This document shows positions 12,696 through 27,357 of a DNA stretch of 64,000 bases, piece after piece (position 1 is the first letter of the stretch; every line of letters starts with the position of its first letter). The notes under the pieces were generated by a model. It did not search any database. It saw only the letters and a list, made by a program, of their open reading frames with translations, and was not told the DNA's origin. The stretch covers positions 620,001-684,000 of the forward strand of contig NZ_JAHBGB010000002.1 of NCBI RefSeq assembly GCF_018390555.1, in the 5' to 3' direction. Origin of the DNA: Ancylobacter oerskovii (GTDB lineage Bacteria; Pseudomonadota; Alphaproteobacteria; Rhizobiales; Xanthobacteraceae). A program made the translations under genes and the position numbers.

Positions 12696-13835
12696 TCACT
12701 CCGAGGCGTCGAGCAGCACCGCCTCGCCGAGATCGAAGGCCAGCGCCAGCGGCGCGCCGACCGGGGCGCCGGCCACGATGTCGGAGCCGGTCACCCGCGT
12801 CTCGACCAGGCCGATCCCCTCCACCACCACGCGGGTGATGGTGTGCGAGCCCTGGTAGATGTGGGCGTCCACCTTGCCGGTGACGATGTTCGGCCCGGCC
12901 TCGCCGGGCGCGGCCGGGCGCACATGCTCCGGCCGCAGGAAGGCGCGCACCTGCCGGCCCGGCGCGAAGCCGGCGGCGGGCATCGCCGGGAAGACCAGCG
13001 GACCGGCGCCGGGCAGCACCAGCGACGCGATGCCGTCCTTCACCTCGCAGCGGCCCGGCGGCAGGGCGTTGATCTCGCCGATGAAGGAGGCGACGAAGCC
13101 GTTGGCCGGCTGGCGGTAGAGCTCGATCGGCGTCGCGACCTGCTGCACCGAGCCCTTGTTCATCACCACGATGCGGTCGGAGAGCGACAGCGCCTCGCCC
13201 TGGTCGTGGGTGACGAAGATGGTGGTGAGCCCGGTCTTGCGGTGCAGCTCGGAGAGCTCGACCTGCATCTGGGCGCGCAGGTTCTTGTCGAGCGCCGAGA
13301 GCGGCTCGTCGAGCAGGAGCACCTTGGGCCGGATGACGATGGCGCGGGCCAGCGCCACGCGTTGCTGCTGGCCGCCGGACAGCTGGCGCACGCGGCGATT
13401 CTCGAAGCCGTCGAGCTTCATCATCGCGATGGCGCGGGCGACCTCCTGCTCCACCTGCGCCGCCGGCAGCTTACGCATCTTCAGGCCGAAGGCGATGTTG
13501 TCGCGGACGTTCATATGCGGGAACAGCGCATAGGACTGGAACACCATGCCGATGTCGCGCCGGTAGGGCTCGAGACCGGTGATGTCGGCGCCGTCGACGA
13601 CGATCCTGCCAGCGGTGGGGGTGACGAAGCCGGCGATCATGCCGAGCAGGGTCGACTTGCCGCAGCCGGACGGGCCGAGCAGGGTGACGAACTCGCCCTT
13701 GGCGATGGTGAGCGACACGTCGGCGACGCCGACCGCCGCGCCGAAATCCTTGCGCACCCGCACGATGTCGACGGCGCTGCCGGCCTCCGGCGACGGGTTG
13801 AAGGTGTTCGCTTGCTGGGTGGGCGTGGCAGTCAT
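12696..13835 (-). CDS. ABC transporter ATP-binding protein, spermidine/putrescine type (PotA-like)
   Basis: The energising subunit of an importer. The 379-residue protein has Walker A GPSGCGKST, the Q-loop FQSYALFPH, the signature LSGGQQQR, Walker B VLLLDEP and the switch His in VTHDQ. A TOBE domain in the last 100 residues is typical of polyamine and iron types. It is the last gene of a leftward run: binding protein (16003), two permeases (14662, 13859), then this gene. The gap to the upstream permease is only 23 bp. The substrate class is inferred from family membership and gene set, and could be any small cation or organic amine. Confidence 0.92.
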   Translation of the reverse strand: MTATPTQQANTFNPSPEAGSAVDIVRVRKDFGAAVGVADVSLTIAKGEFVTLLGPSGCGKSTLLGMIAGFVTPTAGRIVVDGADITGLEPYRRDIGMVFQSYALFPHMNVRDNIAFGLKMRKLPAAQVEQEVARAIAMMKLDGFENRRVRQLSGGQQQRVALARAIVIRPKVLLLDEPLSALDKNLRAQMQVELSELHRKTGLTTIFVTHDQGEALSLSDRIVVMNKGSVQQVATPIELYRQPANGFVASFIGEINALPPGRCEVKDGIASLVLPGAGPLVFPAMPAAGFAPGRQVRAFLRPEHVRPAAPGEAGPNIVTGKVDAHIYQGSHTITRVVVEGIGLVETRVTGSDIVAGAPVGAPLALAFDLGEAVLLDASE

Positions 13836-13858: not shown

Positions 13859-14650
13859 TCAGTGCGTGTCGATGGCGAGGACGCGGCGCAGACCGATGGT
13901 GCGGTCGGCCACCAGCATGATGAGCGTGGTGGCGATGATGAGCAGCGCCGAGATCGCCGACACGGTGGGGTCGGCATATTCGCGGATGTAGTTGTACATG
14001 GCGACCGGCAGCGTCTGGGTGCGCGAGCCGGTGACATAGAGCGAGGCGGTGAACTCGGTGAGCGACAGCACCGCGGCGATCAGCCAGCCGCCCGCCATGC
14101 CCGGCACCACCAGCGGCAGGGTGATCCTTGTGAGCACCTGCCACGGCGAGGCGCCGAGATTGGCGGCGGCGCGCGCCAGCGCCGGGTCGATATTGGCGAG
14201 GCTGACATGCACCGCCCGCGTGACGAACGGCATGACCAGCACCATGTGGGCCAGCACGATCATCACATAGCCCTGCTGCAGCCGGAAGGCGCCGCCGAGC
14301 AGCAGGAAGCCGAAGCCGAGGGTGAAGTGCGGGATGATCAGCGGCGACCACAGCACGCCTTCCAGCAGGCCGCGGCCGCGGAACTCGTAGTGATGGATCA
14401 GCCAGGCGAAGGCGGAGCCGACGATCAGCGCCAGCGTCGAGGCGCAGGCGGTGACGATCAGCCCGTTCTTGAAGGCGAGCTGGAAGTCCGGGTAGCTCAC
14501 CGCCTTGGCGTACCAGTCGAACGAGACGCCCTGCGGCGGGAAGGCGAGGATCTCGGTGGGGTTCACCGAGGTCATCAGCACGACGATGGTCGGCAGCGTC
14601 ATATAGGTCAGCAGCGCGACCACCAGGCTCCAGAAGGCGAAAGAGCGCAT
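13859..14650 (-). CDS. ABC transporter permease, PotC/YdcV type
   Basis: An inner-membrane channel subunit of 263 residues with about six hydrophobic helices. The coupling motif AANLGASPWQVLTRITLPLVVPG (EAA loop), near residues 165-187, contacts the ATPase. The start ATG is at 14650, 11 bp downstream of the end of the other permease, so the two are surely co-transcribed and form the heterodimeric channel. Confidence 0.92.
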   Translation of the reverse strand: MRSFAFWSLVVALLTYMTLPTIVVLMTSVNPTEILAFPPQGVSFDWYAKAVSYPDFQLAFKNGLIVTACASTLALIVGSAFAWLIHHYEFRGRGLLEGVLWSPLIIPHFTLGFGFLLLGGAFRLQQGYVMIVLAHMVLVMPFVTRAVHVSLANIDPALARAAANLGASPWQVLTRITLPLVVPGMAGGWLIAAVLSLTEFTASLYVTGSRTQTLPVAMYNYIREYADPTVSAISALLIIATTLIMLVADRTIGLRRVLAIDTH

Positions 14651-14661
14651 CGGCTTGCTCC

Positions 14662-15519
14662 TCAATGAACCGCGAGGCGCCGCTCGATGCGGCTGGTGAC
14701 GCCCTTCATCAGCGCGAGGCTGCCGAGGGCGCAGACGAGGGCGATCAGGCTCAGCGTCGCGGCGAAGGGCAGGTTCAGCACCGAGAAGCCCTGCAGATAG
14801 GCGAGGTTGGAGATCATCAGGATCTTGCCGCCGCCGATCAGCTGCGGGGTGGAGAAGGCGCTCATGGTCCAGGCGAACACCACCACGATGCCCGACAGGA
14901 TGCCCGGCACGGTCAGCGGCAGGGTGATGCGCCAGAACACCGCCGTCGGCGAGGCGCCGAGATTGGCGGCGGCCTTCTCGCAGTCGCGGTCGACATGGGC
15001 GATGGCGGTGGCGAGCAGGATGATCATCACCGGCATGGAGAACTGCACCAGCGCCACCACCACGCCGAAGCGGGTGTACATGAGCTGGATCGGCATATCG
15101 ATGAGGCCGAGCTTGCGCAGGATCGAATTGATGAAGCCGTCGGTGCCCAGCGTGAGCATCCACGAGAAGGTGCGCACGATCTCGCCGGTGAACAACGGGG
15201 TGATGGAAAGCGAGACGAGGGCCGAGCGCACCCAGTCCCGCTTCGCCCGCACCAGCGCATAGGCGACCGGATAGGACGCGAGCAGCGAGAAGATGGCGGT
15301 GAGCAGGCTGATGAAGAAGGTGTCGGCCAGCACCCACCAGTAGATCGGCTTGTTGAGGGCGGCGAAATTGGCCAGCGTGAAGCCGCCGACATTCAGCGAG
15401 CCGGGAATGAACTCGCGCACGCTGTATTGCAGCACCTCGAAGATGGCGGCGGCAAGGATCACCGCGGTGAGCACCGCCGGCGCCAGGAAGGTGATGAAGA
15501 AGGGGCGTTTGGCGAGCAT
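14662..15519 (-). CDS. ABC transporter permease, PotB type
   Basis: The first permease of the polyamine-type importer, with 285 residues. An N-terminal helix at about 9-30 is followed by five more. The EAA coupling loop reads AAANLGASPTAVFWRITLP near residue 190. It lies between the binding-protein gene, about 480 bp away across a repeat-rich gap, and the second permease 11 bp downstream. Confidence 0.92.
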   Translation of the reverse strand: MLAKRPFFITFLAPAVLTAVILAAAIFEVLQYSVREFIPGSLNVGGFTLANFAALNKPIYWWVLADTFFISLLTAIFSLLASYPVAYALVRAKRDWVRSALVSLSITPLFTGEIVRTFSWMLTLGTDGFINSILRKLGLIDMPIQLMYTRFGVVVALVQFSMPVMIILLATAIAHVDRDCEKAAANLGASPTAVFWRITLPLTVPGILSGIVVVFAWTMSAFSTPQLIGGGKILMISNLAYLQGFSVLNLPFAATLSLIALVCALGSLALMKGVTSRIERRLAVH

Positions 15520-16002: not shown

Positions 16003-17028
16003 TCAGTGCATCATGTTCTCGGTGAACCACGCCTTCCACTGCGGCAGCAGGGTGGCGTAGGTCTTGTCGTCGAGGACGATGGCACCCTTCTCGATCGCCT
16101 CCTGGCTGGTGAAGATGCCGGGCAGCTTGGCGATTTCCGGGTCCAGTTTGGCTTCGCCGCTCATCGGCGAGCACTTGTGGAAGTTGCACAGCTTGGCCAG
16201 CATTTCCGGCTCGAGCGCGATGTTGAGGAACTGCTCGGCCAGCGCCTTCTTCTTCGAGTTCTTGTTGATGCCCCACACATCGGTGCCGGCAACCGCGCCT
16301 TCCTTCGGCACGTCGATCTGGATCGGGATACCGAGCTTCTGGATGTGGTAGCCGTTGATGTTGAGCAGCACCTGCACCGGGGTCTCGCCGGTGCGGATGA
16401 GGTTCTGGCTGGTGGCGTCCGACTGGTAGAAGGCCTTGATGCTCTTCTTCAGCTCGAGCAGCTTCGGCTTCACCTTGTCCCACTCCTCCGGCTTCACGCC
16501 GGCGAGCTTGGTGGCGGCGATGATGACGTGGCTCGGGTCGAAGTCGGGCAGGCCGAGCTTGCCGGCGACTTCCGCCCCCCACAGGGCCTCCCAGCTGTCG
16601 ATCTTGAAATCCTTCGGCATCAGATCCGTGCGGAAGGCCGGCGTATAGACATAGACATAATCCGCGACCGTGTAGTCGGAACGCTTCGCCATCGGGTAGA
16701 GCTTGGCGGCGTTCGGGATCTTCGACCAGTCCAGCTTCTCCATCAGCCCGTCGGAATGATAGAGATAGCCGACATGAGCGGTGGTGTTGACGAGGTCGGA
16801 CTCGGGGTTGTCGCGGGCGACCTTCGCCTTGGCGAGACGGTCCAGCGTGCCGCCGGTGATGTACTCCACCTCGACGCCGGTGCGCTTGGTGAACTCCTTG
16901 CCGACGATGGCGACGCCTTCCTTCCAGTTGCCACCCCAGGTGCTGATCACCAGCTTCTCCTGGGCCGAGGCGACGGTCGCCGACGCTACGACCGCCAACG
17001 CGCCGAGCGCGAGTGCAAGCTTCTTCAT
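16003..17028 (-). CDS. Periplasmic binding protein of polyamine-type ABC importer (PotD-like)
   Basis: Captures the substrate for the importer encoded downstream. The 341-residue protein has a signal peptide ending Ala-Ser-Ala-Gln near residue 20, then the family 1/PotD-type fold (ISTWGGNWKEG near the start of the mature protein; the TDVWGINKNSKKK segment later). ATG at 17028 has GAGGTGG 5-6 bases upstream. It lies downstream of the D-2-hydroxyacid dehydrogenase gene and upstream of the permeases. The ligand is unknown, but the neighbourhood suggests the compound degraded by the adjoining catabolic genes rather than a general polyamine. Confidence 0.9.
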   Translation of the reverse strand: MKKLALALGALAVVASATVASAQEKLVISTWGGNWKEGVAIVGKEFTKRTGVEVEYITGGTLDRLAKAKVARDNPESDLVNTTAHVGYLYHSDGLMEKLDWSKIPNAAKLYPMAKRSDYTVADYVYVYTPAFRTDLMPKDFKIDSWEALWGAEVAGKLGLPDFDPSHVIIAATKLAGVKPEEWDKVKPKLLELKKSIKAFYQSDATSQNLIRTGETPVQVLLNINGYHIQKLGIPIQIDVPKEGAVAGTDVWGINKNSKKKALAEQFLNIALEPEMLAKLCNFHKCSPMSGEAKLDPEIAKLPGIFTSQEAIEKGAIVLDDKTYATLLPQWKAWFTENMMH

Positions 17029-17113: not shown

Positions 17114-18049
17114 CTAGTAGCCGCGGGCGGGATCGATCTCGTGCAGCGGCGGCCGGCCGGCGCGCACGCGGCGTATGCTCTCGGCGACGTCGCGGGCGGC
17201 CAGCGCCGGCACGGTGATGCTCGCCATGTGCGGGGTGATGAACACGTTGTCCAAGGCCCAGAACGGGTGCCCGGGCGGCAGCGGCTCGACATTGAACACG
17301 TCGAGCGTCGCCTCGGCGAGGCGGCCGGAGGTGAGCGCGGCGACCAGCGCGTCCTCGTCGACCACCGGCCCGCGCGAGGCGTTGACGAATTTGGCGCCCT
17401 TCGGCATCAGCGCCAGCTCGGCGGCGCCGAGGAGACCGCGCGACTCTTTCGTCAGCGGGATGAGGCTGACGAGGATCTCGCTTTCCTTCAGGATGGTCTC
17501 CAGCCCCTCGCGGCCGGTGAGCGAGCGCACGCCGGGGATGGACTTTTGTGAGCGCGACCAGCCGGAAACCGTGTAGCCCATCTGCGCCAGCATGGCGGCG
17601 GCGGGCGCGCCGAGCTCGCCGAGGCCGAGCACGCCGACCTTGATGTCGGCGAGCGGGCGGGGATGCACATATTCCCACTCGCCGCGCCGCTTGGCGCGCT
17701 CGAAGACGTGCATGTCGCGGGCGTAGCGGGTGACGGCGAACACGACGTAGCTCGTCATCATCGCCGTCATGCCGGTGTCGTTGAGGCGCGAGAAATACAC
17801 CGGCACCAGATCGTCGCGATTGACCAGCCGGTCGACGCCGGCACCGAGATTGGTGACCAGCTTCAGGTTGGGAAAGCGGGCGAAGAAACCGTCCGGCGGC
17901 GTCCAGGCGAGGACGTAATGCACCTCGGCGGGGTCGCCGACCTCGGGATCGACGCGGAAATCGAGATCCGGCAGTTCGGCCGCGAGCGCCGCGCGCCACT
18001 CCTCGGCGCTGTCGACAGGGCTGTAGAAGACGAGCGCATCGCGTCCCAT
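17114..18049 (-). CDS. D-2-hydroxyacid dehydrogenase (GhrA-like)
   Basis: An NAD(P)H-dependent reductase or dehydrogenase of 2-keto/2-hydroxy acids such as glyoxylate, hydroxypyruvate or longer keto acids. Of 311 residues, the Rossmann motif GLGELG lies near residue 143. The catalytic triad is an Arg in NASRGPVVDED, a Glu in FNVEPLPPGHP and a His in TPHMAS, all in their usual order. The ATG at 18049 overlaps the stop of a 15-codon frame (TGATG), and its ribosome site GGAGG lies inside that frame, so translation is probably coupled. In the locus it could interconvert a keto acid released by the pathway. Confidence 0.9.
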   Translation of the reverse strand: MGRDALVFYSPVDSAEEWRAALAAELPDLDFRVDPEVGDPAEVHYVLAWTPPDGFFARFPNLKLVTNLGAGVDRLVNRDDLVPVYFSRLNDTGMTAMMTSYVVFAVTRYARDMHVFERAKRRGEWEYVHPRPLADIKVGVLGLGELGAPAAAMLAQMGYTVSGWSRSQKSIPGVRSLTGREGLETILKESEILVSLIPLTKESRGLLGAAELALMPKGAKFVNASRGPVVDEDALVAALTSGRLAEATLDVFNVEPLPPGHPFWALDNVFITPHMASITVPALAARDVAESIRRVRAGRPPLHEIDPARGY

Positions 18050-18169: not shown

Positions 18170-18793
18170 TTACTGTTCCCCAAGATTGGAAAAATCAATC
18201 TTCGCTTCGGGACGACGGGTCGGCGACAGGAAGGCCACGATCGCCTCGCCGTCACGCTGCGAGGACGCGCGCAGGGTCGCCTCCTCGCGCGAGACCAGCG
18301 TCTCGCCGGGGCGCACGATCGCCGAGCCGACGCGATCGCCGACCTGCCAGGTGCCGCTGACGGCGTGGAGCACGACGAAGCCGCCATCCGGCACCGCCAG
18401 CAGCGGCTCGGTGGCGCCGACCACCGGCATGACCTGCGCGTTCCAGCGCCCGCGCCGCGTCATCACGTTGAGCACCTGCGCCGGCCCTTCCGCCAGCACC
18501 GAGCGCGGCTGCAGCACGCTGTCGAAATAGAGCGGCTCCAGCCGCTTCAGCTCGCGCGTCTCGGTGCCGAAGGCGAGGCCGAGCGACGCCGCGCTCAGGC
18601 GGGTGATGTGGCGGTCGATGCCGGGGAAGGAGGAGAATGCGCCCTCCGTCACGATCGGCGCCAGGCTGAGGCGGATGTCGAAGCTCTCATGCGTCGCTCC
18701 CTCCGGGAAGAGGAACACGTCCCGGGTGATGCCGCCGCCGTTCTTCCACGGCGTGACGGCATAGTCGGACATGGTGAGGACTTTCAGCGACAT
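18170..18793 (-). CDS. hutD: HutD/Ves family cupin protein
   Basis: A small cytoplasmic cupin-fold protein (207 residues from ATG 18793). HutD proteins accompany histidine-utilisation genes and are thought to regulate flux or intermediate levels; the biochemical role is not settled. Family marks here are TPWKNGGGITRD near the N-terminus and the FSSFPGIDRHITRLSA segment. No hut genes are in the window, so it probably serves the adjoining catabolic locus. An upstream ATG would give a 16-residue extension but lies in unlikely sequence. It ends just before the promoter region of the dehydrogenase operon. Confidence 0.85.
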   Translation of the reverse strand: MSLKVLTMSDYAVTPWKNGGGITRDVFLFPEGATHESFDIRLSLAPIVTEGAFSSFPGIDRHITRLSAASLGLAFGTETRELKRLEPLYFDSVLQPRSVLAEGPAQVLNVMTRRGRWNAQVMPVVGATEPLLAVPDGGFVVLHAVSGTWQVGDRVGSAIVRPGETLVSREEATLRASSQRDGEAIVAFLSPTRRPEAKIDFSNLGEQ

Positions 18794-19315: not shown

Positions 19316-20260
19316 TCAGCGCATCGTCACCTGCGGCGAGAGGGTGCCGGGGGCGAAGACGCCGCCGGCGGAGAACGATTCCTTCAGGTGGCGGGCGAAC
19401 ACCTCCACCGCCGGACGCGGCGCCTGGCGCCGCAGCCGCAGGCTGACGAGGTGCACCGGCTCCAGCCGTTCCACCAGCGGCACCGCCGCCACCCGGCCAC
19501 CATCATGCGTGGTCTGGGTGCGCGGCATGACGTTCTGGATGGTGTAGCCGCGCCCATGCCCGACCAGGCCGCGGGTGAGCTCATAGGCCTTGGAACGGAA
19601 GGCGATGCGCGGCTCGATGCCGACCGAGCGGAACAGGCCGAGGAAATAGTCGCGCGAATGCGGCAGGTCGAGCAGGATGAAGGGCTCGTCCTTGAGATCG
19701 GCGAGCCGGACATTGTCGCGCTGGGCGAGCGGGTGGTCGGGATGCAGCACCACATAGGGCGGCAGCTCCGCCAGCGGCTCGGCCACCACATCCTCCGGCA
19801 CGGCGAATTCATAGGAGAAGGCGAGCTCGGTGCGGCCGGAGATGATGGCGTCGAGGATCTGCGCCTGATCGCCCTCATCGAGGCTGACGGAGATGCCGGG
19901 ATGCCCCTCGGCGAAATCGGATAGCAGGCTCGGCATGAAATGGGTGGCCAGTGTCCAGAAGCAGCCCACCGTGATCTCGCCGCGCACCTCGTCCGCCATG
20001 GCGCGGGCGTTCTGGCCGAAATCGCGGGCATGGTTCAGCAAGAGGCGCGCCTCGTTGATGATGCGGGTGCCGGCGATGGTGGTGGTGACGCCCTTGGCAT
20101 GGTGGCGCACGAAGATCTGCACGCCGCACTCGGCCTCGAACTGAGCGACGGCGGCGGAAATCGAGGGCTGCGACACGTTCAGATATTTCGCCGCCTCGGT
20201 GAGATTGCCGAAATCGGCGGTGGCGACGACATAGCGCAGCGCCCGGAGCGAGACGTTCAT
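19316..20260 (-). CDS. LysR-family transcriptional regulator
   Basis: The probable regulator of the surrounding catabolic genes. The 314 residues begin with the winged helix-turn-helix domain (NVSQPSISAAVAQFEAECG, about 28-46), followed by the effector domain. It is transcribed divergently from the monooxygenase gene with 133 bp between them, the usual layout for a LysR protein acting on its target. Possible operators are the palindromes at 20368 and 18121. The effector is probably the substrate or an intermediate of the HpaB pathway (inference). Confidence 0.93.
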   Translation of the reverse strand: MNVSLRALRYVVATADFGNLTEAAKYLNVSQPSISAAVAQFEAECGVQIFVRHHAKGVTTTIAGTRIINEARLLLNHARDFGQNARAMADEVRGEITVGCFWTLATHFMPSLLSDFAEGHPGISVSLDEGDQAQILDAIISGRTELAFSYEFAVPEDVVAEPLAELPPYVVLHPDHPLAQRDNVRLADLKDEPFILLDLPHSRDYFLGLFRSVGIEPRIAFRSKAYELTRGLVGHGRGYTIQNVMPRTQTTHDGGRVAAVPLVERLEPVHLVSLRLRRQAPRPAVEVFARHLKESFSAGGVFAPGTLSPQVTMR

Positions 20261-20393: not shown

Positions 20394-21848
20394 ATGATCC
20401 GTACCGGCGACCAGTATCGTGAGGGACTTCAGGACGGCCGTGAGGTCTGGATGGACGGCGAGCGGGTGAAGGACGTCACCCAGCACCCGTCCTTCAAGCC
20501 GATCGTCGACGTCCGGGCCCGCATGTACGACATGGCCCATGAGGCGAAGTACCAGGACCGCCTCACCTATGTCGAAGACAACAAGCGCAACACGATCTTC
20601 TACAAGCCGCCGCGCGAGACCAAGGACTGGACCGACAAGCTCGAGGCCGTCGACGCGGTGATGCAGGACATCGGCGGCGTCGTCACCCGCGTCGGCGACG
20701 AGACCATCGGCGAGGTGTGGTCGCTGATCGACGGGCGCGACGTGCTCGCCGAATTCGACCCGCGCTTCGCCGACAATGTCGACCGGCACGTGCAGAACAT
20801 CTTCGACAACGACATCTTCCACATCTCCGCCAATACCGACCCGAAGGGCGACCGTTCCCTGCCGCCGCAGGAGCAGGACCCCGACATGATGGTGCATGTG
20901 GTCAAGGAGACCGATGCCGGCATCGTCATCCGCGGCGCCAAATACGAGACCGCCGCGGCTTACGCCGACCAGGCCTTCCTGAAGCCGACCGTCGGCGCCT
21001 GGACCAACGAGACGCTGTCCGACTACGCGGTGGGCGGCATCATCGACATGGGCGCGCCGGGGGTGAAGCAGATCTGCCGCTCCTCCTTCGCCGGCCGCAA
21101 CAACCCGAAGGACTACCCGCTCGCCAACAAGTTCGACGAGGTGGAATCCCTCGTGATCTTCGACAATGTGCTGATCCCCTGGGAGAACGTGTTCTTCTAC
21201 CGGCACACCAAGGCGGCGCAGTTCATCCGCGCCACGCTGCACCGCTACTCGGCCTTCCCCTATGTGCACCGCCTGCTCTACGTCGCCGACATGATGATCG
21301 GCGCGGCGATGTGGAACGCCAAGCAGACCGGCCTCGACAAGCTGCAATCGGTGCGCGAGAAGCTGGCCGACCTCGTCTGCTACCGCGAGGGCATCAACGC
21401 GCATCTCACCGCCTCGATCACGCTGGCGGAGAAGAGCCCCGGCGGGCTCTTGATGCCCAACCAGTCCATCCTCTATGCCGGCCGCGTGCATGGCTGCGCC
21501 AACCTGCCGGCGATGATGCACATCGCCCGCGAATTGTGCGGCGGGCAGATCTGCGTCACCCCGAACTCGGCGGCGTTCGAGTCGGAAGGCTCGGGCCCGT
21601 GGCTGCAGAAGTTCTACTCGCTGAACAAGCAGTGGGAGAGCGAGGACCGGCGCAAGCTGCTCGCCTTCGCCCGCGACCTGCTCAATTCCGACTATGCCGG
21701 CCACCGGCTGACCTTCGTGCAGTTCGCGCAGGCGCCGCACTTCAATCATCTCAATGCGGTGTACAACAGCTTCGACTTCTCCGGCCCGCTCGACTTCGTG
21801 CGCAAGGCGGCGGGCCTGTCGGACAAGGTGATGGGAACCGGAAAATGA
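20394..21848 (+). CDS. HpaB-family flavin-dependent monooxygenase, large component
   Basis: A 484-residue oxygenase of the 4-hydroxyphenylacetate 3-hydroxylase/pyrrole-2-carboxylate monooxygenase family, which hydroxylates aromatic or heteroaromatic rings using reduced flavin supplied by a partner. Family features are the N-terminal GDQYREGLQDGR, DPDMMVHVVKETD in the central barrel, IPWENVFFYRH, and a C-terminal helical domain of acyl-CoA dehydrogenase type. The gene overlaps the flavin reductase start (ATGA), confirming a two-component system. No homoprotocatechuate genes follow, so 4-hydroxyphenylacetate is an unlikely substrate. The downstream amidohydrolase and RidA point to a nitrogen-containing ring (inference). 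Confidence 0.9.
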   Translation: MIRTGDQYREGLQDGREVWMDGERVKDVTQHPSFKPIVDVRARMYDMAHEAKYQDRLTYVEDNKRNTIFYKPPRETKDWTDKLEAVDAVMQDIGGVVTRVGDETIGEVWSLIDGRDVLAEFDPRFADNVDRHVQNIFDNDIFHISANTDPKGDRSLPPQEQDPDMMVHVVKETDAGIVIRGAKYETAAAYADQAFLKPTVGAWTNETLSDYAVGGIIDMGAPGVKQICRSSFAGRNNPKDYPLANKFDEVESLVIFDNVLIPWENVFFYRHTKAAQFIRATLHRYSAFPYVHRLLYVADMMIGAAMWNAKQTGLDKLQSVREKLADLVCYREGINAHLTASITLAEKSPGGLLMPNQSILYAGRVHGCANLPAMMHIARELCGGQICVTPNSAAFESEGSGPWLQKFYSLNKQWESEDRRKLLAFARDLLNSDYAGHRLTFVQFAQAPHFNHLNAVYNSFDFSGPLDFVRKAAGLSDKVMGTGK

Positions 21849-22348
21849 GTGAAACGGGACACGGGATCGACACGGCCCTCTTCCGCCAGGCCATGGGGCG
21901 CACCGCCTCCGGCGTGACGGTGGTAACGACTGACGGCGACGCCGGACGTGGCGGCGTCACCGTGTCCTCGCTCTGCTCCCTGTCGATGGAGCCGCCCTCG
22001 GTGCTGTTCTGCCTGCACAAGGGCAGCCGCATCCTCGACACGCTGATGAGCAACGGCGTGTTCGCCGCCAACATCCTCGCCCATGACCAGCACCGGGTGG
22101 CCGACAGCTTTGCCGGCCTGATCCCCGAGCTGCGCGAGGACCGCTTCGCGGTCGCCGAATGGGACGCCCTTCATACCGGCTCGCCGGTGCTGCCGGGCGC
22201 CCTGTGCCGCTTCGACTGCAAGATCGCCAGCGTGTTCGAGTTCGGCACCCACCACATCATCGCCGGCGAGGTGGTGGCGCTGGAAAGCTTCGAGACCAAG
22301 CCGCTGATCTATTCCAATCGCGGCTACCACAAGCTGCACATGGTCTGA
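21845..22348 (+). CDS. Flavin reductase, HpaC/RutF type
   Basis: Supplies reduced FMN or FAD to the monooxygenase. The 167-residue split-barrel protein starts at ATG 21845, overlapping the upstream stop. Conserved features are FRQAMGRTASGVTVVTT, the flavin-contacting TVSSLCSLSMEPPSVLFCL stretch and a C-terminal GTHHIIAGEV segment. Its size and order match the reductases of two-component flavin monooxygenases. Confidence 0.93.
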   Translation: MSETGHGIDTALFRQAMGRTASGVTVVTTDGDAGRGGVTVSSLCSLSMEPPSVLFCLHKGSRILDTLMSNGVFAANILAHDQHRVADSFAGLIPELREDRFAVAEWDALHTGSPVLPGALCRFDCKIASVFEFGTHHIIAGEVVALESFETKPLIYSNRGYHKLHMV

Positions 22349-22351
22349 GGC

Positions 22352-23581
22352 ATGAACGTGGGGGCGGTGGGGCATGCCGAGAACGGGTTGGTAGCGGGGG
22401 AGCGGCTTGAACCCACGCCGGAGCTGCTGCGCCTCGCCGCCGACCTGATCGCCATTCCCTCGATCAGCGCCGTCTCCAACCTGCCGGTCATCGACTATAT
22501 CGCCGCCTATCTCGCCAAGCATGGCGTCGACAGCCGGCGGATCCCCAATGCCGCCGGCGACAAGGCCTCGCTGCTCGCCACCATCGGGCCGGCGGAGGCG
22601 CCGGGGCTCGCCCTCTCCGCCCATACCGACGTGGTGCCGGTGGAGGGACAGGACTGGTCCACCCCGCCCTTCGCCGCGACGATCCGCGACGGCCGGCTCT
22701 ACGGGCGCGGCTCCTCCGACATGAAGGGCTTCCTCGCCACCGTGCTGGCGACGGTGCCGCATTTCGTGCGCCACGCCACCACCCGGCCGGTGCATCTGTG
22801 CTTCTCCTATGACGAGGAAGTCGGCTGCGCCGGCGCGCCGGACCTCGTCGCCGCAACCGCAGCGCTGGCGGTGCCCCCAGCGCTGTGCCTCGTGGGCGAG
22901 CCGAGCTCGCTGAAGGTGGCGCGGGCGCATAAGGGCAAGTTCGCCAATCGCCTTGTCGTCACCGGCAAGGGCGGGCATTCCGCCCTGCCCCATCGCGCCG
23001 CCAATGCGGTGGCGGCCGCCGCGAGGATCGTTGTCGGGCTGGAGGCGATCGGCGCCTCGCTGAAGACGATCACCGACGACGCCTTCGAGCCGCCCTACAC
23101 CACCGTGCATGTCGGCGCGCTGCATGGCGGCACGGCGCTGAACCTGGTGCCGGACCGCGCGGTGCTGGACTATGAGGTGCGCACCATTCCCGGCGCCGAC
23201 GCCGTCGCGATCAAGGCCCGCATAGATGCGCTGGTCGCCGAGGTGCGCGCGAACCTGAAGGCGCAGGCGCCGGAGGCCGACATCGCCGTCGAGCCGATCA
23301 GCGCCTATCCCGGCCTCGACACCCCCGCCGACCTGCCCGCCGCCGCCCGGCTCGCCCGGCTCGCCGGCTCCAACGAGGCGCCGATCACGCTGGCCTACGG
23401 CACCGAGGCCGGCCTTTACGACGAAGCCGGCATCCCGACACTGGTGTGCGGGCCGGGCGACATCGCCCGCGCGCACAAGGCCGACGAATGGATCGGCCTC
23501 GACGAACTCACCCGCGCCGAACAGCTGATGCGCCGGCTGGCGCTCGCGCTCGGCGACACCCCTTCCGACCCGCTTTTCTAA
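22352..23581 (+). CDS. M20-family amidohydrolase (ArgE-like)
   Basis: A zinc-dependent hydrolase of N-acyl amino acids, carbamoyl compounds or similar amides (409 residues). Metal and catalytic residues are visible: His in SAHTDVVPV with its following Asp, Asp in GRGSSDMKG, the Glu pair in SYDEEVGCAG, Glu in VGEPSS and His in ARAHKADE. The dimerisation (lid) domain lies at about 180-300. Three bases separate it from the flavin reductase. Although ArgE-like, it sits away from arginine synthesis genes and probably opens or deacylates an intermediate of the monooxygenase pathway (inference). Confidence 0.9.
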   Translation: MNVGAVGHAENGLVAGERLEPTPELLRLAADLIAIPSISAVSNLPVIDYIAAYLAKHGVDSRRIPNAAGDKASLLATIGPAEAPGLALSAHTDVVPVEGQDWSTPPFAATIRDGRLYGRGSSDMKGFLATVLATVPHFVRHATTRPVHLCFSYDEEVGCAGAPDLVAATAALAVPPALCLVGEPSSLKVARAHKGKFANRLVVTGKGGHSALPHRAANAVAAAARIVVGLEAIGASLKTITDDAFEPPYTTVHVGALHGGTALNLVPDRAVLDYEVRTIPGADAVAIKARIDALVAEVRANLKAQAPEADIAVEPISAYPGLDTPADLPAAARLARLAGSNEAPITLAYGTEAGLYDEAGIPTLVCGPGDIARAHKADEWIGLDELTRAEQLMRRLALALGDTPSDPLF

Positions 23582-23613
23582 CCCCCACCCTTTGCCCCAA
23601 CGAGGCTGCTCCC

Positions 23614-24036
23614 ATGGTCGTGCACACGCGTCTGCGCCCCTTCAACACCAAGGAAACCTATCCCGAGCAGAAGCTGGACAACGACCTGTCGCAGGGCGTG
23701 GTCGCCCGCGGCACCATGGTGTTCCTGCGCGGCCAGGTGGCGCAGGATCTCGACACCCGCGAGAGCCTGCATGTCGGCGACGCCGGCAAGCAGACCGAAA
23801 AGGCGATGGCCAACATCAAGATGCTGCTGGAGGAAGCCGGCAGCGAGATGAGTCATATCTGCCGCATCGTCGTCTATGTCACCGATATCCGCTACCGCGA
23901 GGCGGTCTATCAGGAGATGGGCAAGTGGCTGAAGGGCGTGTTCCCCTGCTCCACCGGGCTGGTGGTGCCGGCGCTCGCCCGCCCGGAATGGGTGGTGGAG
24001 ATCGAAGTCACCGCCGTCATTCCCGACGCCGCCTGA
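23614..24036 (+). CDS. RidA family protein (enamine/imine deaminase)
   Basis: Hydrolyses reactive enamine or imine intermediates to ketones plus ammonia; some members, such as 2-aminomuconate deaminase, are pathway enzymes. The protein has 140 residues from ATG 23614, with GAGG 9 bases upstream. The family core is visible: FLRGQVAQDLD, the QTEKAMANIKMLLEEAG helix, and a C-terminal ALARPEWVVEIEVTAV strand. The usual substrate-binding Arg of RidA (in xRxxVxV near the C-terminus) is not evident, since the segment reads ARPEWVVEIEV, so the substrate may differ. It lies 32 bp after the amidohydrolase. Confidence 0.88.
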   Translation: MVVHTRLRPFNTKETYPEQKLDNDLSQGVVARGTMVFLRGQVAQDLDTRESLHVGDAGKQTEKAMANIKMLLEEAGSEMSHICRIVVYVTDIRYREAVYQEMGKWLKGVFPCSTGLVVPALARPEWVVEIEVTAVIPDAA

Positions 24037-24040
24037 GCAG

Positions 24041-24073
24041 GTATTTCCGCGTTTCCCGGAACCGCAGAAATAC
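24041..24073 (+). terminator. Hairpin after the RidA gene
   Basis: GTATTTC-C-GCG pairs with CGC-A-GAAATAC to give an interrupted 10-bp stem starting 5 bases after the RidA stop. T-rich DNA (CTTTTGTTTTA) follows within 15 bases. It may attenuate transcription into the DUF1028 gene, splitting the locus into two expression levels. Confidence 0.4.
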
Positions 24074-24153
24074 ACCAACCTTTTGTTTTACCGCATTTTC
24101 TTTCACGCGACCCGACACCCGCTTCGCTTGAAAATGCTTTGAAAGGCGCCGAC

Positions 24154-24831
24154 GTGACCTTCTCCATCTCCGCACGCTGCGCCCGCACCGGGCGCTTCGG
24201 CATCGCGGTGTCCTCCTCCTCGCCGGCGGTGGCGGCGCGCTGCGCGCATGTCCGCGCCGGCGTCGGCGTGGTGGCGACGCAGAACATCACCGACCCGACG
24301 CTCGGCCCCAAGGGGCTCGACCTGATGGCGCAGGGTCTCTCCGCCGACGAGGTGATGGCGCGCTTCAGGGCCGAGGCGCCGCATTTCGACTACCGGCAGG
24401 TGGTGGTGCTGGACAGGACCGGCCATTCGGCCGGCCATTCCGGCGTGAAGACGCTGGGCACCCACACTATCGTCCACGCCCCCGACGTGGCGGCGGCGGG
24501 CAACCTCCTGTCCTCCACGGCGGTGCCGCAGGCGATGGTCGACAGCTTCCTGTCGATGCCCTCCGCCGACCTCGGCGACCGGCTGGTCGCCGCCATGCAG
24601 GCGGCGGTGAAGGCCGGCGGCGAGGAAGGCCCGGTGCATTCGGTGGGCCTGCTGATCGTCGACAAGGTGGCCTGGCCGGTCGCCGATTTGCGCATCGACT
24701 GGTCGGACGGCGACGTGATGGCGGAGCTGGCGAGCCTGTGGGAGCTGTGGAAGCCGCAGCTGGAGGCCTATGTCACCCGCGCCCTCGACCCGTCCACCGC
24801 GCCGTCCTACGGCGTGCCCGGCGACGAATAG
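24154..24831 (+). CDS. DUF1028 family protein (Ntn-hydrolase-like)
   Basis: A 225-residue protein of the DUF1028 family, related in fold to N-terminal nucleophile hydrolases. It begins at GTG 24154 (GAAAGG 7 bases upstream), giving MTFSISARCARTG. That places the conserved Thr/Ser near the N-terminus, followed by FGIAVSSSSPAV and the GVVATQ(N)ITDPTLG block. These motifs are diagnostic of the family, whose substrates are not established. It lies in the same direction as the monooxygenase genes and could hydrolyse an amide intermediate (inference). Confidence 0.82.
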   Translation: MTFSISARCARTGRFGIAVSSSSPAVAARCAHVRAGVGVVATQNITDPTLGPKGLDLMAQGLSADEVMARFRAEAPHFDYRQVVVLDRTGHSAGHSGVKTLGTHTIVHAPDVAAAGNLLSSTAVPQAMVDSFLSMPSADLGDRLVAAMQAAVKAGGEEGPVHSVGLLIVDKVAWPVADLRIDWSDGDVMAELASLWELWKPQLEAYVTRALDPSTAPSYGVPGDE

Positions 24832-24837
24832 AGGCGG

Positions 24838-24965
24838 CACGGCCCTGCGGGCTTCGAGACGCGGGGCCATGTCCCGCTGCGCAGCCTGAGGGAGAAAGGC
24901 CAGCATCCTTCGCCCCCTCATCGCGAGGCGCGAGTGAAGCGAGCCTCGAAAGACGCACCACGCCA
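24838..24965. repeat. Intergenic palindromic repeat of Rhizobiales type
   Basis: The space before the GlcG-like gene contains GCTTCGAGACGCG, CTGCGCAGCCTGAGG and, further on, CCTCATCGCGAGGCGCGAG followed by GCGAGCCTCGAAAGACGCACC. These are inverted relatives (CTTCGAGACGC against GCCTCGAAAGACGC). The arrangement resembles the dispersed repeats found between genes in Bradyrhizobium and relatives. Confidence 0.55.
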
Positions 24966-25004
24966 GCCGCTTTCGCTTTTTCAAGATCACTTTCGAGGTG
25001 CCGC

Positions 25005-25430
25005 ATGCCGATCACCCGCCCTGCCCTCAAGCTGACCCATGAAGGCGCGCTCAAGGCGCTCAATGGCGCGCTCGCCAAGGCCACCGAACTCGGCGTGCCG
25101 CAGAACATCACCATCGTCGACGAGGGCGGCAACCTGCTCGCCTATGTCCGCATGGACGGCGCCAAGCTGCTCTCCCGCGAGACCTCGATGTCGAAGGCCG
25201 TGACCGCCGCCTCGCATCGCCAGCCCTCATCGCGACTGAACCCGAAGGACGAGGTGAAGCTGTCGCTCGCCGCCGGCCAGCGGCTGACCAATCTCGAAGG
25301 CGGGCTACCGATCATCATCGACGGCCAGTGCCTCGGCGCCATCGGCGTGGGCTCCGGCAAGGGCGCCGAGGACGTGGAAGTGGCGCGGGCGGGGCTTGCC
25401 GCCATCGGCGCGGAGGACCAGATCCCGTGA
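25005..25430 (+). CDS. GlcG/HbpS family protein
   Basis: A 141-residue protein of the GlcG/HbpS (DUF336) family. Members bind haem or cobalamin or act as accessory proteins in catabolic operons; the role is rarely proven. Family features are LTHEGALKALNGALAKATELG at the start, IVDEGGNLLAYVRMDGA and GGLPIIIDGQCLGAIGVGSG. ATG 25005 follows CGAGGTG. It overlaps the next gene by 4 bases (GTGA). No signal peptide is seen, so it is cytoplasmic. Confidence 0.87.
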   Translation: MPITRPALKLTHEGALKALNGALAKATELGVPQNITIVDEGGNLLAYVRMDGAKLLSRETSMSKAVTAASHRQPSSRLNPKDEVKLSLAAGQRLTNLEGGLPIIIDGQCLGAIGVGSGKGAEDVEVARAGLAAIGAEDQIP

Positions 25431-26074
25431 AGCTCAAACCGATGAAGTTGATCTTCGCCCCGACCTCGCCCTTCGTCCGCAAGGTGATGGCGGTCGCCCA
25501 CGAGACCGGCCTCGCCGGTCGGCTCGAGATCGAGTTCAACCCGGCGAGCCCGCTGCAGCGCGATCCGGCCCTCGTCGGCCACAACCCGCTTGGCAAGATC
25601 CCGGCGCTGGTGCTCGACGACGGCCGCGTGCTGTTCGACAGCCCGGTGATCTGCGAATACCTCGCCACCACCGCCGGCGACACCGTGCTGTTCCCGCCCG
25701 CCGGCCCGGCGCGCTGGGCGGCGCTGACGCAGCAGGCGCTGGGCGACGGGCTGCTCGATGCCGCCATCGCCAACCGCTACGAGACGGTGCCGCGCCCGGC
25801 GGATCTGCGCTGGCCGGACTGGACGAAGGCGCAGCTCGCCAAGATCGCCGGCGCGCTCGACGCCATCGAGGCGCTGGCGCCGGAGCTGCCGCAGCAATCC
25901 GACCACCCGGCCACCATCGGCACGATCACGCTGGGCTGCGCGCTCGGCTATCTCGATTTCCGCTATGCCGAGCTGAACTGGCGCGAGGGACGGCCGCAGG
26001 CGGCGGTGTGGTTCGCCGCCTTCGACGCCCGCCCGTCCATGGCGGCGACGCGCCCGCGCGAGCACGTCGCCTGA
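25427..26074 (+). CDS. Glutathione S-transferase-like protein
   Basis: The 215-residue protein has a thioredoxin-like N-terminal domain (SPFVRKVMAVAHETGL, then NPLGKIPALVLDDG and the glutathione-contacting FDSPVICEYL) and an all-helical C-terminal domain. In catabolic operons such proteins often act as isomerases or ring-opening/dehalogenating enzymes using glutathione. GTG 25427 overlaps the stop of the GlcG-like gene; ATG 25442 is an alternative start that would trim five residues. The conserved Ser in the SPFVRK segment could be the catalytic residue. Confidence 0.88.
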   Translation: MKLKPMKLIFAPTSPFVRKVMAVAHETGLAGRLEIEFNPASPLQRDPALVGHNPLGKIPALVLDDGRVLFDSPVICEYLATTAGDTVLFPPAGPARWAALTQQALGDGLLDAAIANRYETVPRPADLRWPDWTKAQLAKIAGALDAIEALAPELPQQSDHPATIGTITLGCALGYLDFRYAELNWREGRPQAAVWFAAFDARPSMAATRPREHVA

Positions 26075-26156
26075 GGCGGCGGGCCTCCCGCCCCTCTTCG
26101 CCCCCCTGCGGCGTGGGCTGCCGCCCGCGCCTTTCCCCCGCAACCGGAGCCCGCCC

Positions 26157-26606
26157 GTGACCGCCCTGCGCCTCGACGTCGTCAACGGCCCCAATGCCAA
26201 TCTCTACGGGCTCGACCCCACCGGCCCCTATGGCAGCCTGACGCTGGCCGACATCGGCGCGCGCTGCGAGGCGAAGGCGGCGAGCCTCGGCGCCACGCTG
26301 CGCTTTCGCCAATCCAACCATGAGGGCGTGCTGATCGACTGGATCCAGGCGGCGCGCACCGAGGCCGACGGCTTGATCATCAACGCCGCCAGCCTGTCCT
26401 ACACCTCGATCGGCGTGCTCGACGCCCTCTCGGCGCTGGGCAAGCCGGCCTTCCAGGTGCATGTGAGCAATGTGTTCAAGCGCGAGAAGCTGCGGCATTT
26501 CTCGCCGCTTTCCGCTGCCGTGACCGGCTGCATCATCGGCGCCGGGCCGATGGGCTACGAGCTCGCCATCGAGGCGCTGGTGGCGCAGCTGAAGGGCGTG
26601 GTGTAG
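26157..26606 (+). CDS. Type II dehydroquinase paralogue with altered active site
   Basis: A 149-residue AroQ-fold protein, the last gene of the rightward catabolic run. NGPNANLYG, RQSNHEG and VHVSNVFKRE identify the family. However, the lid-loop Arg essential in dehydroquinases is Asp here (position 20) and the substrate-binding His of the NPGAYTHTS block is Tyr (82). The general base Tyr (25), Asn 76, His 102 and Arg 109 are kept. It is therefore probably not a shikimate enzyme but a lyase or hydrolase acting on an intermediate of this pathway. Such a shift would fit a second, housekeeping aroQ elsewhere in the genome (inference). Confidence 0.85.
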   Translation: MTALRLDVVNGPNANLYGLDPTGPYGSLTLADIGARCEAKAASLGATLRFRQSNHEGVLIDWIQAARTEADGLIINAASLSYTSIGVLDALSALGKPAFQVHVSNVFKREKLRHFSPLSAAVTGCIIGAGPMGYELAIEALVAQLKGVV

Positions 26607-26665: not shown

Positions 26666-27271
26666 TCACAGATGCCGTCGCCAGTGCTCCTCGGACACGA
26701 TGGAGATCGGCAGGCCACTGCTCCGCCACTCGACGGCCTGCAGGATCTTGTTGCCGAAGGAAGAGTGTTTCCAGGATTCGGTGGCATAGGCACCGATGAC
26801 CAGCACCTGCGTCTTCTGTGTGATGCCGCCGACCTGCGCGCCGCGCTCCACCACGGCGGCTTCGCAATGCCGGCGCTGGCCGAAAGTGAAGGTGCCCGTG
26901 AAGCAGTAGCGCTGGCCGGCAAAGCTGAGAGCCGGCGCCGGCTGGCAAAGCGGCAGGCTGGTCGACTTGAGCACCTCGCCGAGCTCGAAATTGCCCGCAG
27001 TGAAACGCTCCAGCGTCTCCAACAGCTCTGTCTTCTCCTGTTCGTCCACCACGCTGTCGGCGAGGATCGCGGCAACACGCTCGTAGAGACCGTGAATCAG
27101 GGGCTCGGCGCTGATCGCCAGATTGGCGGCAAGCCACTTCTGGAGAAACTGAACCTCGGCCTCGTTAATCTGCCCGTCTGCGATGAGACCGCGGGAAATA
27201 CCGATCAATTCGTCGATCTGTCGACTAGTGAGACGATCGCCGTTCACGCGCGCAAGGAATGCCTCGTCCAT
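26666..27271 (-). CDS. BRCT-domain protein with N-terminal helical domain
   Basis: A 201-residue protein. The N-terminal half (about 1-95) is helical and acidic, resembling a TerB-like or similar bundle. The C-terminal half (about 110-195) is a BRCT domain beginning LSFAGQRYCFTGTFTFG, with VVERGAQVGG and TQVLVIG. BRCT domains of this kind are best known at the end of NAD-dependent DNA ligase and in DNA-repair or phage-defence proteins. The start ATG 27271 has AGGGAGG 6-7 bases upstream. It lies beside the tRNA gene with no partner. Function is unknown; a role in DNA metabolism is inferred from the domain. Confidence 0.75.
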   Translation of the reverse strand: MDEAFLARVNGDRLTSRQIDELIGISRGLIADGQINEAEVQFLQKWLAANLAISAEPLIHGLYERVAAILADSVVDEQEKTELLETLERFTAGNFELGEVLKSTSLPLCQPAPALSFAGQRYCFTGTFTFGQRRHCEAAVVERGAQVGGITQKTQVLVIGAYATESWKHSSFGNKILQAVEWRSSGLPISIVSEEHWRRHL

Positions 27272-27357
27272 CCACCCCTCCCTTTTCCGCAAGGGAATAG
27301 GAGGGAGCCGGCAACGTCAACCGAAGGTTGCGGGAAATCGAGAACATCGGGGGAGAC

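Follow-up and report, generated by a model that had tools for sequence, protein, structure and literature searches.

A gene cluster of Ancylobacter oerskovii that is likely a variant of histamine and imidazoleacetate degradation

Results

A catabolic gene cluster with a dedicated importer

We analysed a window of 64,000 nucleotides from the 5.48 Mb genome of Ancylobacter oerskovii (contig NZ_JAHBGB010000002.1, positions 620,001 to 684,000), in which eight plus-strand genes at 20394..26606 include an HpaB-type flavin monooxygenase with its reductase, an M20 deacylase, a Rid protein, a DUF1028 protein and a paralogue of the dehydroquinase AroQ (Table 1). These genes had been described in an initial annotation made from the sequence, and domain, profile and structure matches confirm their families. 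The minus-strand neighbours that it listed, a LysR regulator, a hydroxyacid dehydrogenase (here GhrA-like), a HutD-like protein and a dedicated importer, are present as well. We find that the cluster is likely a variant of histamine/imidazoleacetate degradation, with a sister pathway that carries the AroQ paralogue.

Table 1. Cluster genes and neighbouring genes, in window coordinates
Feature	Position	Strand	Basis
HpaB-type flavin monooxygenase, oxygenase component, AroQ-context clade	20394..21848	+	PF11794, PF03241; tree
Flavin reductase, HpaC/RutF-like	21845..22348	+	PF01613
M20 ArgE-type deacylase, predicted deformylase	22352..23581	+	TIGR01892, 380.1 against a cut-off of 297.7
Rid protein without the RidA arginine	23614..24036	+	Comparison with Rid relatives and solved Rid structures
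DUF1028 protein, predicted N-terminal threonine hydrolase; GTG start	24154..24831	+	PF06267
GlcG/HbpS-like protein	25005..25430	+	PF03928; PDB relatives NahX, EfgA
Glutathione S-transferase, YibF-like	25442..26074	+	PDB 4ibp, 178 bits
AroQ (type II dehydroquinase) paralogue, changed lid	26157..26606	+	PF01220
LysR-type regulator	19316..20260	-	Domain match
HutD-like protein	18170..18793	-	48% identity to a HutD-family-annotated gene of Aminobacter MSH1
GhrA-like D-2-hydroxyacid dehydrogenase	17114..18049	-	209.1 bits, below the GhrA cut-off of 403
PotD-like solute-binding protein	16003..17028	-	72.7 bits, below the PotD cut-off of 582; 63% to MSH1
ABC permease 1	14662..15519	-	71% identity to MSH1 permease
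ABC permease 2	13859..14650	-	69% identity to MSH1 permease
ABC ATPase	12696..13835	-	63% identity to MSH1 ATPase

The HpaB and flavin reductase genes overlap by 4 bases, and the PotD-like binding protein starts at an ATG at 17028 or 17046. The open reading frame directly after the cluster (26666-27292, minus strand) has a BRCT-like stretch, as judged by eye.

The neighbourhood is maintained across genomes

From 95 confirmed HpaB relatives in genome contigs we kept the best 80 and scored the presence of the other genes in these loci by tblastn (at least 60 bits). The search patterns were derived from the window HpaB and hence capture close relatives, and many of the loci are short contigs. Among the 80 loci, Rid was found in 62, DUF1028 in 51 (always with Rid), the dehydrogenase in 46, AroQ and the reductase in 43 each, the binding protein in 41, M20 in 34, GlcG in 32, glutathione S-transferase (GST) in 24, HutD in 15, a quinone oxidoreductase in 10, and a flavin monooxygenase of a different family (FMO) in none. 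When the count is restricted to the 54 loci that span 20 kb or more, Rid is present in 48, Rid with DUF1028 in 45, AroQ and the dehydrogenase in 40 each and M20 in 30. Ancylobacter or near-Ancylobacter genomes account for 15 of the 80 loci; the 40 loci of at least 20 kb from other organisms include 34 with Rid, 31 with Rid and DUF1028, 26 with AroQ, 26 with the dehydrogenase and 21 with M20.

The nearest named relatives are Ancylobacter species (loci L003-L005; L numbers are our locus labels) with a 97%-identical HpaB and an identical cluster gene order. Overall, the loci are spread over alpha-, beta- and gammaproteobacteria, with one from an actinobacterial metagenome-assembled genome (MAG), and gene order and strand differ between them, showing that linkage has been maintained through rearrangement. 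The clustering of these genes is beyond chance. The earlier view of a catabolic cluster stands: it is conserved and has an importer of its own.

Rid, DUF1028, M20 and AroQ proteins of the cluster

The Rid protein had been read as a RidA enzyme that removes ammonia from enamines. Imine hydrolysis by RidA requires an arginine (PMC4433059). This arginine is absent from all 109 cluster Rid proteins, which have Ser (104), Cys (4) or Phe (1) in its place, and enamine deamination by Rid was therefore dropped. We take the arginine to be RidA position 105; aligned with solved Rid structures, the window protein has the same substitution.

The DUF1028 protein has an N-terminal-nucleophile hydrolase fold with Thr at the N-terminus, and in 92 of 97 cases the start codon is followed directly by Thr; we predict that it is an N-terminal threonine hydrolase. 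The literature searched, with subscription journals largely outside it, yielded neither a function for DUF1028 nor an account of this gene set. The DUF1028 gene of Klebsiella aerogenes NCTC10006 (L100:8010-8684) is annotated as 'major pilin protein fimA' and looks misannotated.

When the cluster proteins were compared with NCBIfam cut-offs for 4-hydroxyphenylacetate, Rut and acetylornithine functions, the M20 protein alone passed, as a predicted ArgE-type deacylase (Table 1). The AroQ paralogue scores 137.2 against the dehydroquinase equivalog TIGR01088 (cut-off 169.85). It keeps the Tyr and the His, which we take to be the catalytic residues of type II 3-dehydroquinate dehydratase, in 55 of 55 aligned rows each, and the position of what is presumably the lid arginine of that enzyme is Asp in 46 of the 55 and in the window. 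The paralogue is probably a reused shikimate-pathway enzyme.

A core shared with histamine and imidazoleacetate clusters

The core of these clusters consists of the monooxygenase, Rid, DUF1028 and M20, and in other genomes it adjoins a histamine dehydrogenase, an aminotransferase with an aldehyde dehydrogenase, or an aspartate ammonia-lyase. One plasmid locus (L088) carries HpaB, M20, DUF1028, Rid, an aldehyde dehydrogenase, FMO, an aspartate ammonia-lyase and a histamine-dehydrogenase-like protein of 689 residues, which matches histamine dehydrogenase (PDB 6de6) over residues 1-686 with 1264.6 bits. Relatives of this enzyme occur in one locus with HpaB and without FMO in L066, L076, L077, L080 and L081, with both monooxygenases in L090 and with FMO only in L097; AroQ is present in none of the eight loci that hold a 6de6-like histamine dehydrogenase. 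The large flavin mononucleotide protein beside HpaB in L077 and L080 had been taken for an ene-reductase from Pfam and NCBIfam, an assignment overturned by the PDB match of its L088 homologue. A decarboxylase of L080 scored 56.2 as histidine decarboxylase (cut-off 305) and was not used as evidence.

The Pseudomonas aeruginosa hin genes comprise a transporter, an aminotransferase, an aldehyde dehydrogenase, a LysR regulator and hinFLHG, which encode the enzymes from imidazole-4-acetate to aspartate, hinG being a probable peptidic bond hydrolase (PMC8231116). The K. aerogenes locus L100 has the order NCS1 permease, aminotransferase, aldehyde dehydrogenase, LysR, FMO, Rid, DUF1028, M20, gene types that parallel PAO1 hinDAC and hinK plus a four-gene unit resembling hinFLHG. 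A gene named aspartate ammonia-lyase in L083, L088 and L095 scores 655.1, 685.8 and 680.0 bits against NF008909 (cut-off 510), falling short of the stricter TIGR00839 cut-off in all three; such a gene is expected if the product is aspartate. The contexts of the core point to the histamine/imidazoleacetate-to-aspartate (hin) route.

Four loci from marine gammaproteobacteria (L068, L069, L071, L075) add HutH-like and HutI genes. In L068 the HutH-like gene scores below its cut-off and the neighbouring HutI above, and the pair may serve ordinary histidine use; this locus additionally contains an amine oxidase, PhyH-type dioxygenases, an HDAC-like deacetylase and class III and class V aminotransferases.

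Two monooxygenase families in the same position

By its domains (HpaB_N and HpaB with a flavin reductase partner), the window pair would belong to the group D flavin monooxygenases, and FMO carries flavoprotein domains other than those of HpaB. Close relatives of the K. aerogenes DUF1028 are present in 44 of 398 Pseudomonadota genomes, and we examined 30 of these loci (about 3.7 kb each): 29 contain Rid, 24 FMO, 3 HpaB, 1 the reductase only and 2 neither monooxygenase, one of the latter being the window itself, cut short. This ratio of FMO to HpaB is biased because the query came from an FMO cluster. HpaB/HpaC and FMO occupy the same place in otherwise matching clusters.

We found no FMO-type orthologue in the window genome, where the one match has 38% identity (251.1 bits) and lies on another contig. 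A class-wide search found FMO in 9 of 369 genomes. Pseudomonas relatives of FMO at 75-79% identity are many among the best 120 of 8000 matches, and PAO1 is not among these 120. A RibF/FAD-synthetase-like gene is found in the MSH1 HpaB cluster (L083:8529-9503; 173.7 bits, below the cut-off of 306) and, by annotation, in that of Bacillus badius (L085:13487-14059), where it perhaps supplies flavin adenine dinucleotide (FAD).

AroQ-type clusters form a sister type

In AroQ-type clusters, the core is accompanied by a second module of AroQ paralogue, GST and PotD-type importer, usually with the GhrA-like dehydrogenase and often with a quinone oxidoreductase and GlcG. We observe this module with HpaB in the window, Bradyrhizobium, Acetobacteraceae, betaproteobacterial MAGs, Aminobacter MSH1 (L083) and Halomonas (L089, where HpaB is read as two parts), and with FMO in Klebsiella (L091, L101), Pantoea (L093, L102), P. 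silvicola (L133, where this applies to several genes), Shinella (L134, with a TRAP importer and no GhrA seen) and genome G308 (L148). The statement of the initial annotation that no known pathway has this gene set fails for the core, which is common to histamine-route clusters, but holds for the AroQ module, found in no described pathway in the literature searched.

A tree of 83 HpaB sequences (FastTree support values) omitted near-identical Ancylobacter sequences (L004, L005, L007, L010-L013, L118) and those cut short or in two pieces (L036, L089, L120, L123). One clade with support 1.0 holds 54 of the 83, including the window. AroQ is present in 37 of these 54 loci, none of the 54 has a histamine dehydrogenase or class III aminotransferase, and 17 lack all three. 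The other 29 loci contain histamine dehydrogenase in 7 cases, aminotransferase in 6, AroQ in 4 and none of these in 12, and three of the four AroQ cases (L024, L028, L032) have a second HpaB that falls inside the AroQ clade; the fourth, MSH1, is a genuine exception. The two groups are told apart by 20 HpaB columns, including 196, 200-202, 290 and several in 442-451. The Bradyrhizobium loci with two HpaB genes lie at L024:3758-15700, L028:3144-15700 and L032:3148-15700.

The corresponding FMO tree (41 sequences, FastTree support) was drawn mostly from loci of about 3.7 kb, few of which allow the AroQ context to be read. The four sequences of known AroQ context (L101, L102, L114, L134) form one clade with support 1.0, and nine FMO-tree loci of at least 16 kb (L088, L090, L094-L100) lack AroQ. 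Genome G308 has, in addition to its AroQ-type cluster, a separate FMO-Rid-DUF1028 cluster (L149) about 40 kb away; the occurrence of these enzymes in duplicate within a genome suggests that there are two substrates. Together, the separation of clades by context and the presence of both types in G308 argue that the window substrate differs from imidazoleacetate, and it is likely, judging from these sequence comparisons, a related but distinct imidazole acid.

AroQ-type clusters include two families with activity on alpha-hydroxy acids, the GhrA-like dehydrogenase and, in Klebsiella L101, an LldD-like oxidase (392.7 bits, cut-off 376). AroQ-type clusters are frequent on enterobacterial plasmids, among them those of Klebsiella (L091, L101) and E. 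coli (L092), and the Klebsiella GhrA-like gene has matches of at least 99% in 109 plasmid records. Two betaproteobacterial AroQ-type clusters contain a TauD-family dioxygenase (L049:14198-15259, L056:11852-13624). An enolase-superfamily gene of L017 gives its best scores, below cut-off, to acid-sugar dehydratases and thus lends no support to a mandelate-like substrate.

Discussion

Proposed pathway

We propose that the window cluster imports and degrades an imidazole carboxylic acid close to imidazoleacetate, whose ring is hydroxylated and opened and loses a one-carbon nitrogen group, so that an ordinary amino acid remains; we give this reading a probability of roughly 0.55. The substrate, the order of steps and the role of each enzyme are what we infer. 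The acid would be imported by the PotD-type ABC system, with LysR as the regulator, and its ring oxidized by HpaB/HpaC to an imidazolone, which DUF1028 may open hydrolytically as an N-terminal threonine hydrolase. The Rid protein would take part in releasing the formimino nitrogen and M20 in deformylation, with the resulting amino acid passing to central metabolism. In AroQ-type clusters, the AroQ paralogue, GST and GhrA-like dehydrogenase, joined by a quinone oxidoreductase in many related clusters, would handle an extra, hydroxylated side chain. Ring hydroxylation followed by amide-type cleavage, as first put forward, is likely the logic of the pathway.

The GhrA-like and LldD-like families fit, without proving, a hydroxy acid such as imidazole-lactate. 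A more specific and doubtful version is that AroQ-type clusters encode a route, so far undescribed, that acts on imidazole-lactate or a similar imidazole 2-hydroxy acid. Here HpaB/HpaC or FMO, DUF1028, Rid and M20 would convert the ring to 4-hydroxyglutamate, a housekeeping enzyme would transaminate it, AroQ would dehydrate the resulting 4-hydroxy-2-oxoglutarate, GST would isomerize the product, and a reduction of the quinone-oxidoreductase type would yield 2-oxoglutarate. 4-Hydroxy-2-oxoglutarate and dehydroquinate have a HOOC-C(OH)-CH2-C(=O) unit in common. If true, this would mean that a shikimate-pathway dehydratase fold has been reused for catabolism, and DUF1028 would for the first time have a function, that of an imidazolone-type ring hydrolase.

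Evidence against the proposal and alternative explanations

Several observations weigh against an imidazole pathway of this form. The Rid proteins lack the only catalytic arginine known for the family, and their role here is a guess. FMO-Rid-DUF1028-M20 is equated with hinFLHG by gene type rather than by PAO1 sequence, an inferred correspondence. Imidazole-specific features are limited to HutD-like genes in the AroQ-type loci examined. The window genome lacks histamine dehydrogenase (best match 31% identity); aminotransferase and aldehyde dehydrogenase are absent among the window cluster genes, the rest of the genome not having been searched for either; and the best aspartase match (42%, 371.8 bits) is off-cluster and could be a fumarase. 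The fetched DNA of L009-L013, Ancylobacter-type loci that otherwise keep the cluster, has no M20, and that of L018 and L020 has no M20, Rid, DUF1028 or reductase. Among the AroQ-clade loci that span 20 kb or more, six lack AroQ. In MSH1 the AroQ module is found together with an aspartate ammonia-lyase and with an HpaB that falls outside the AroQ clade, which counts against a strict two-substrate split, and the joint presence of FMO and HpaB in L088 and L090 indicates that HpaB is not always a plain substitute.

The alternative that survives best, though we consider it unlikely, is a plain imidazoleacetate (histamine) cluster in which HpaB/HpaC is imidazoleacetate monooxygenase, the product is aspartate, the AroQ module is accessory and imidazoleacetate is imported or made elsewhere. 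The core is common to the histamine dehydrogenase and aminotransferase clusters, MSH1 joins the AroQ module to aspartate ammonia-lyase, and the window has a HutD-like gene, all as this explanation would have it. Against it, AroQ-context HpaBs and FMOs each have their own clades, G308 keeps both cluster types, L024, L028 and L032 each keep one HpaB per clade, and no histamine-converting gene lies in the window cluster.

Somewhat less probable is a different N-heteroaromatic acid, for example pyrrole-2-carboxylate or a hydroxypyridine, with ring hydroxylation by HpaB/HpaC and opening of the lactam by a hydrolase. Group D enzymes do include a two-component pyrrole-2-carboxylate monooxygenase (PMC6165268), and the AroQ-type loci examined hold no proof of imidazole; yet the same core stands beside histamine dehydrogenase, aldehyde dehydrogenase and aspartate ammonia-lyase. 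The substrates initially put forward (pyrroles, hydroxypyridines, proline betaines and N-acyl aromatic amines) would seem less favoured than imidazoles.

The initial scheme of ring hydroxylation, M20 amide cleavage, RidA enamine deamination and lyase steps named the gene families as we read them but overlooked the link to histamine clusters, and with the imine-hydrolysis arginine missing throughout the cluster Rid proteins we regard it as very improbable. A 4-hydroxyphenylacetate or other phenol pathway, suggested by the HpaB and flavin reductase domains, is very unlikely, the initial annotation having already set 4-hydroxyphenylacetate degradation apart: the oxygenase scores 230.5 against the HpaB equivalog (cut-off 480.2) and the reductase 129.1 against HpaC (cut-off 205.95), and the cluster genes include no ring-cleavage dioxygenase.

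Comparison with known systems

The imidazole acid pathway that we favour would give DUF1028, the arginine-less Rid group and a divergent dehydroquinase one shared role, the opening of a heteroaromatic ring, and would have two flavin monooxygenases from different families standing before the same hydrolases. It would also provide a candidate pathway for a plasmid-borne gene set that has so far been annotated gene by gene.

Of the described systems, the hin genes of Pseudomonas (PMC8231116) resemble the window in having LysR and, probably, the core, which in K. aerogenes and others lies beside the permease, aminotransferase and aldehyde dehydrogenase. The window differs in having HpaB/HpaC in place of FMO and no histamine-converting enzyme in the cluster, and it adds AroQ, the GhrA-like dehydrogenase, GST, GlcG and the PotD-type importer. 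Clusters with a 6de6-like histamine dehydrogenase combine HpaB, Rid, DUF1028 and M20 in one locus as the window does, whereas the window genome has no such dehydrogenase. The Klebsiella and Pantoea plasmid clusters share AroQ, the GhrA-like dehydrogenase, GST, the PotD-type importer, Rid, DUF1028 and M20 with the window; unlike the window, they have FMO instead of HpaB/HpaC and include the quinone oxidoreductase. The HpaB/HpaC 4-hydroxyphenylacetate 3-monooxygenase has the same fold family and two-component design as the window pair, which differs in its partner genes and its sub-cut-off scores. Finally, the Rut pyrimidine pathway likewise has a RutF-like reductase and a Rid protein, but the window reductase scores 138.5 against RutF (cut-off 254.75), the oxygenase is of the HpaB family and the Rid protein is without the arginine.

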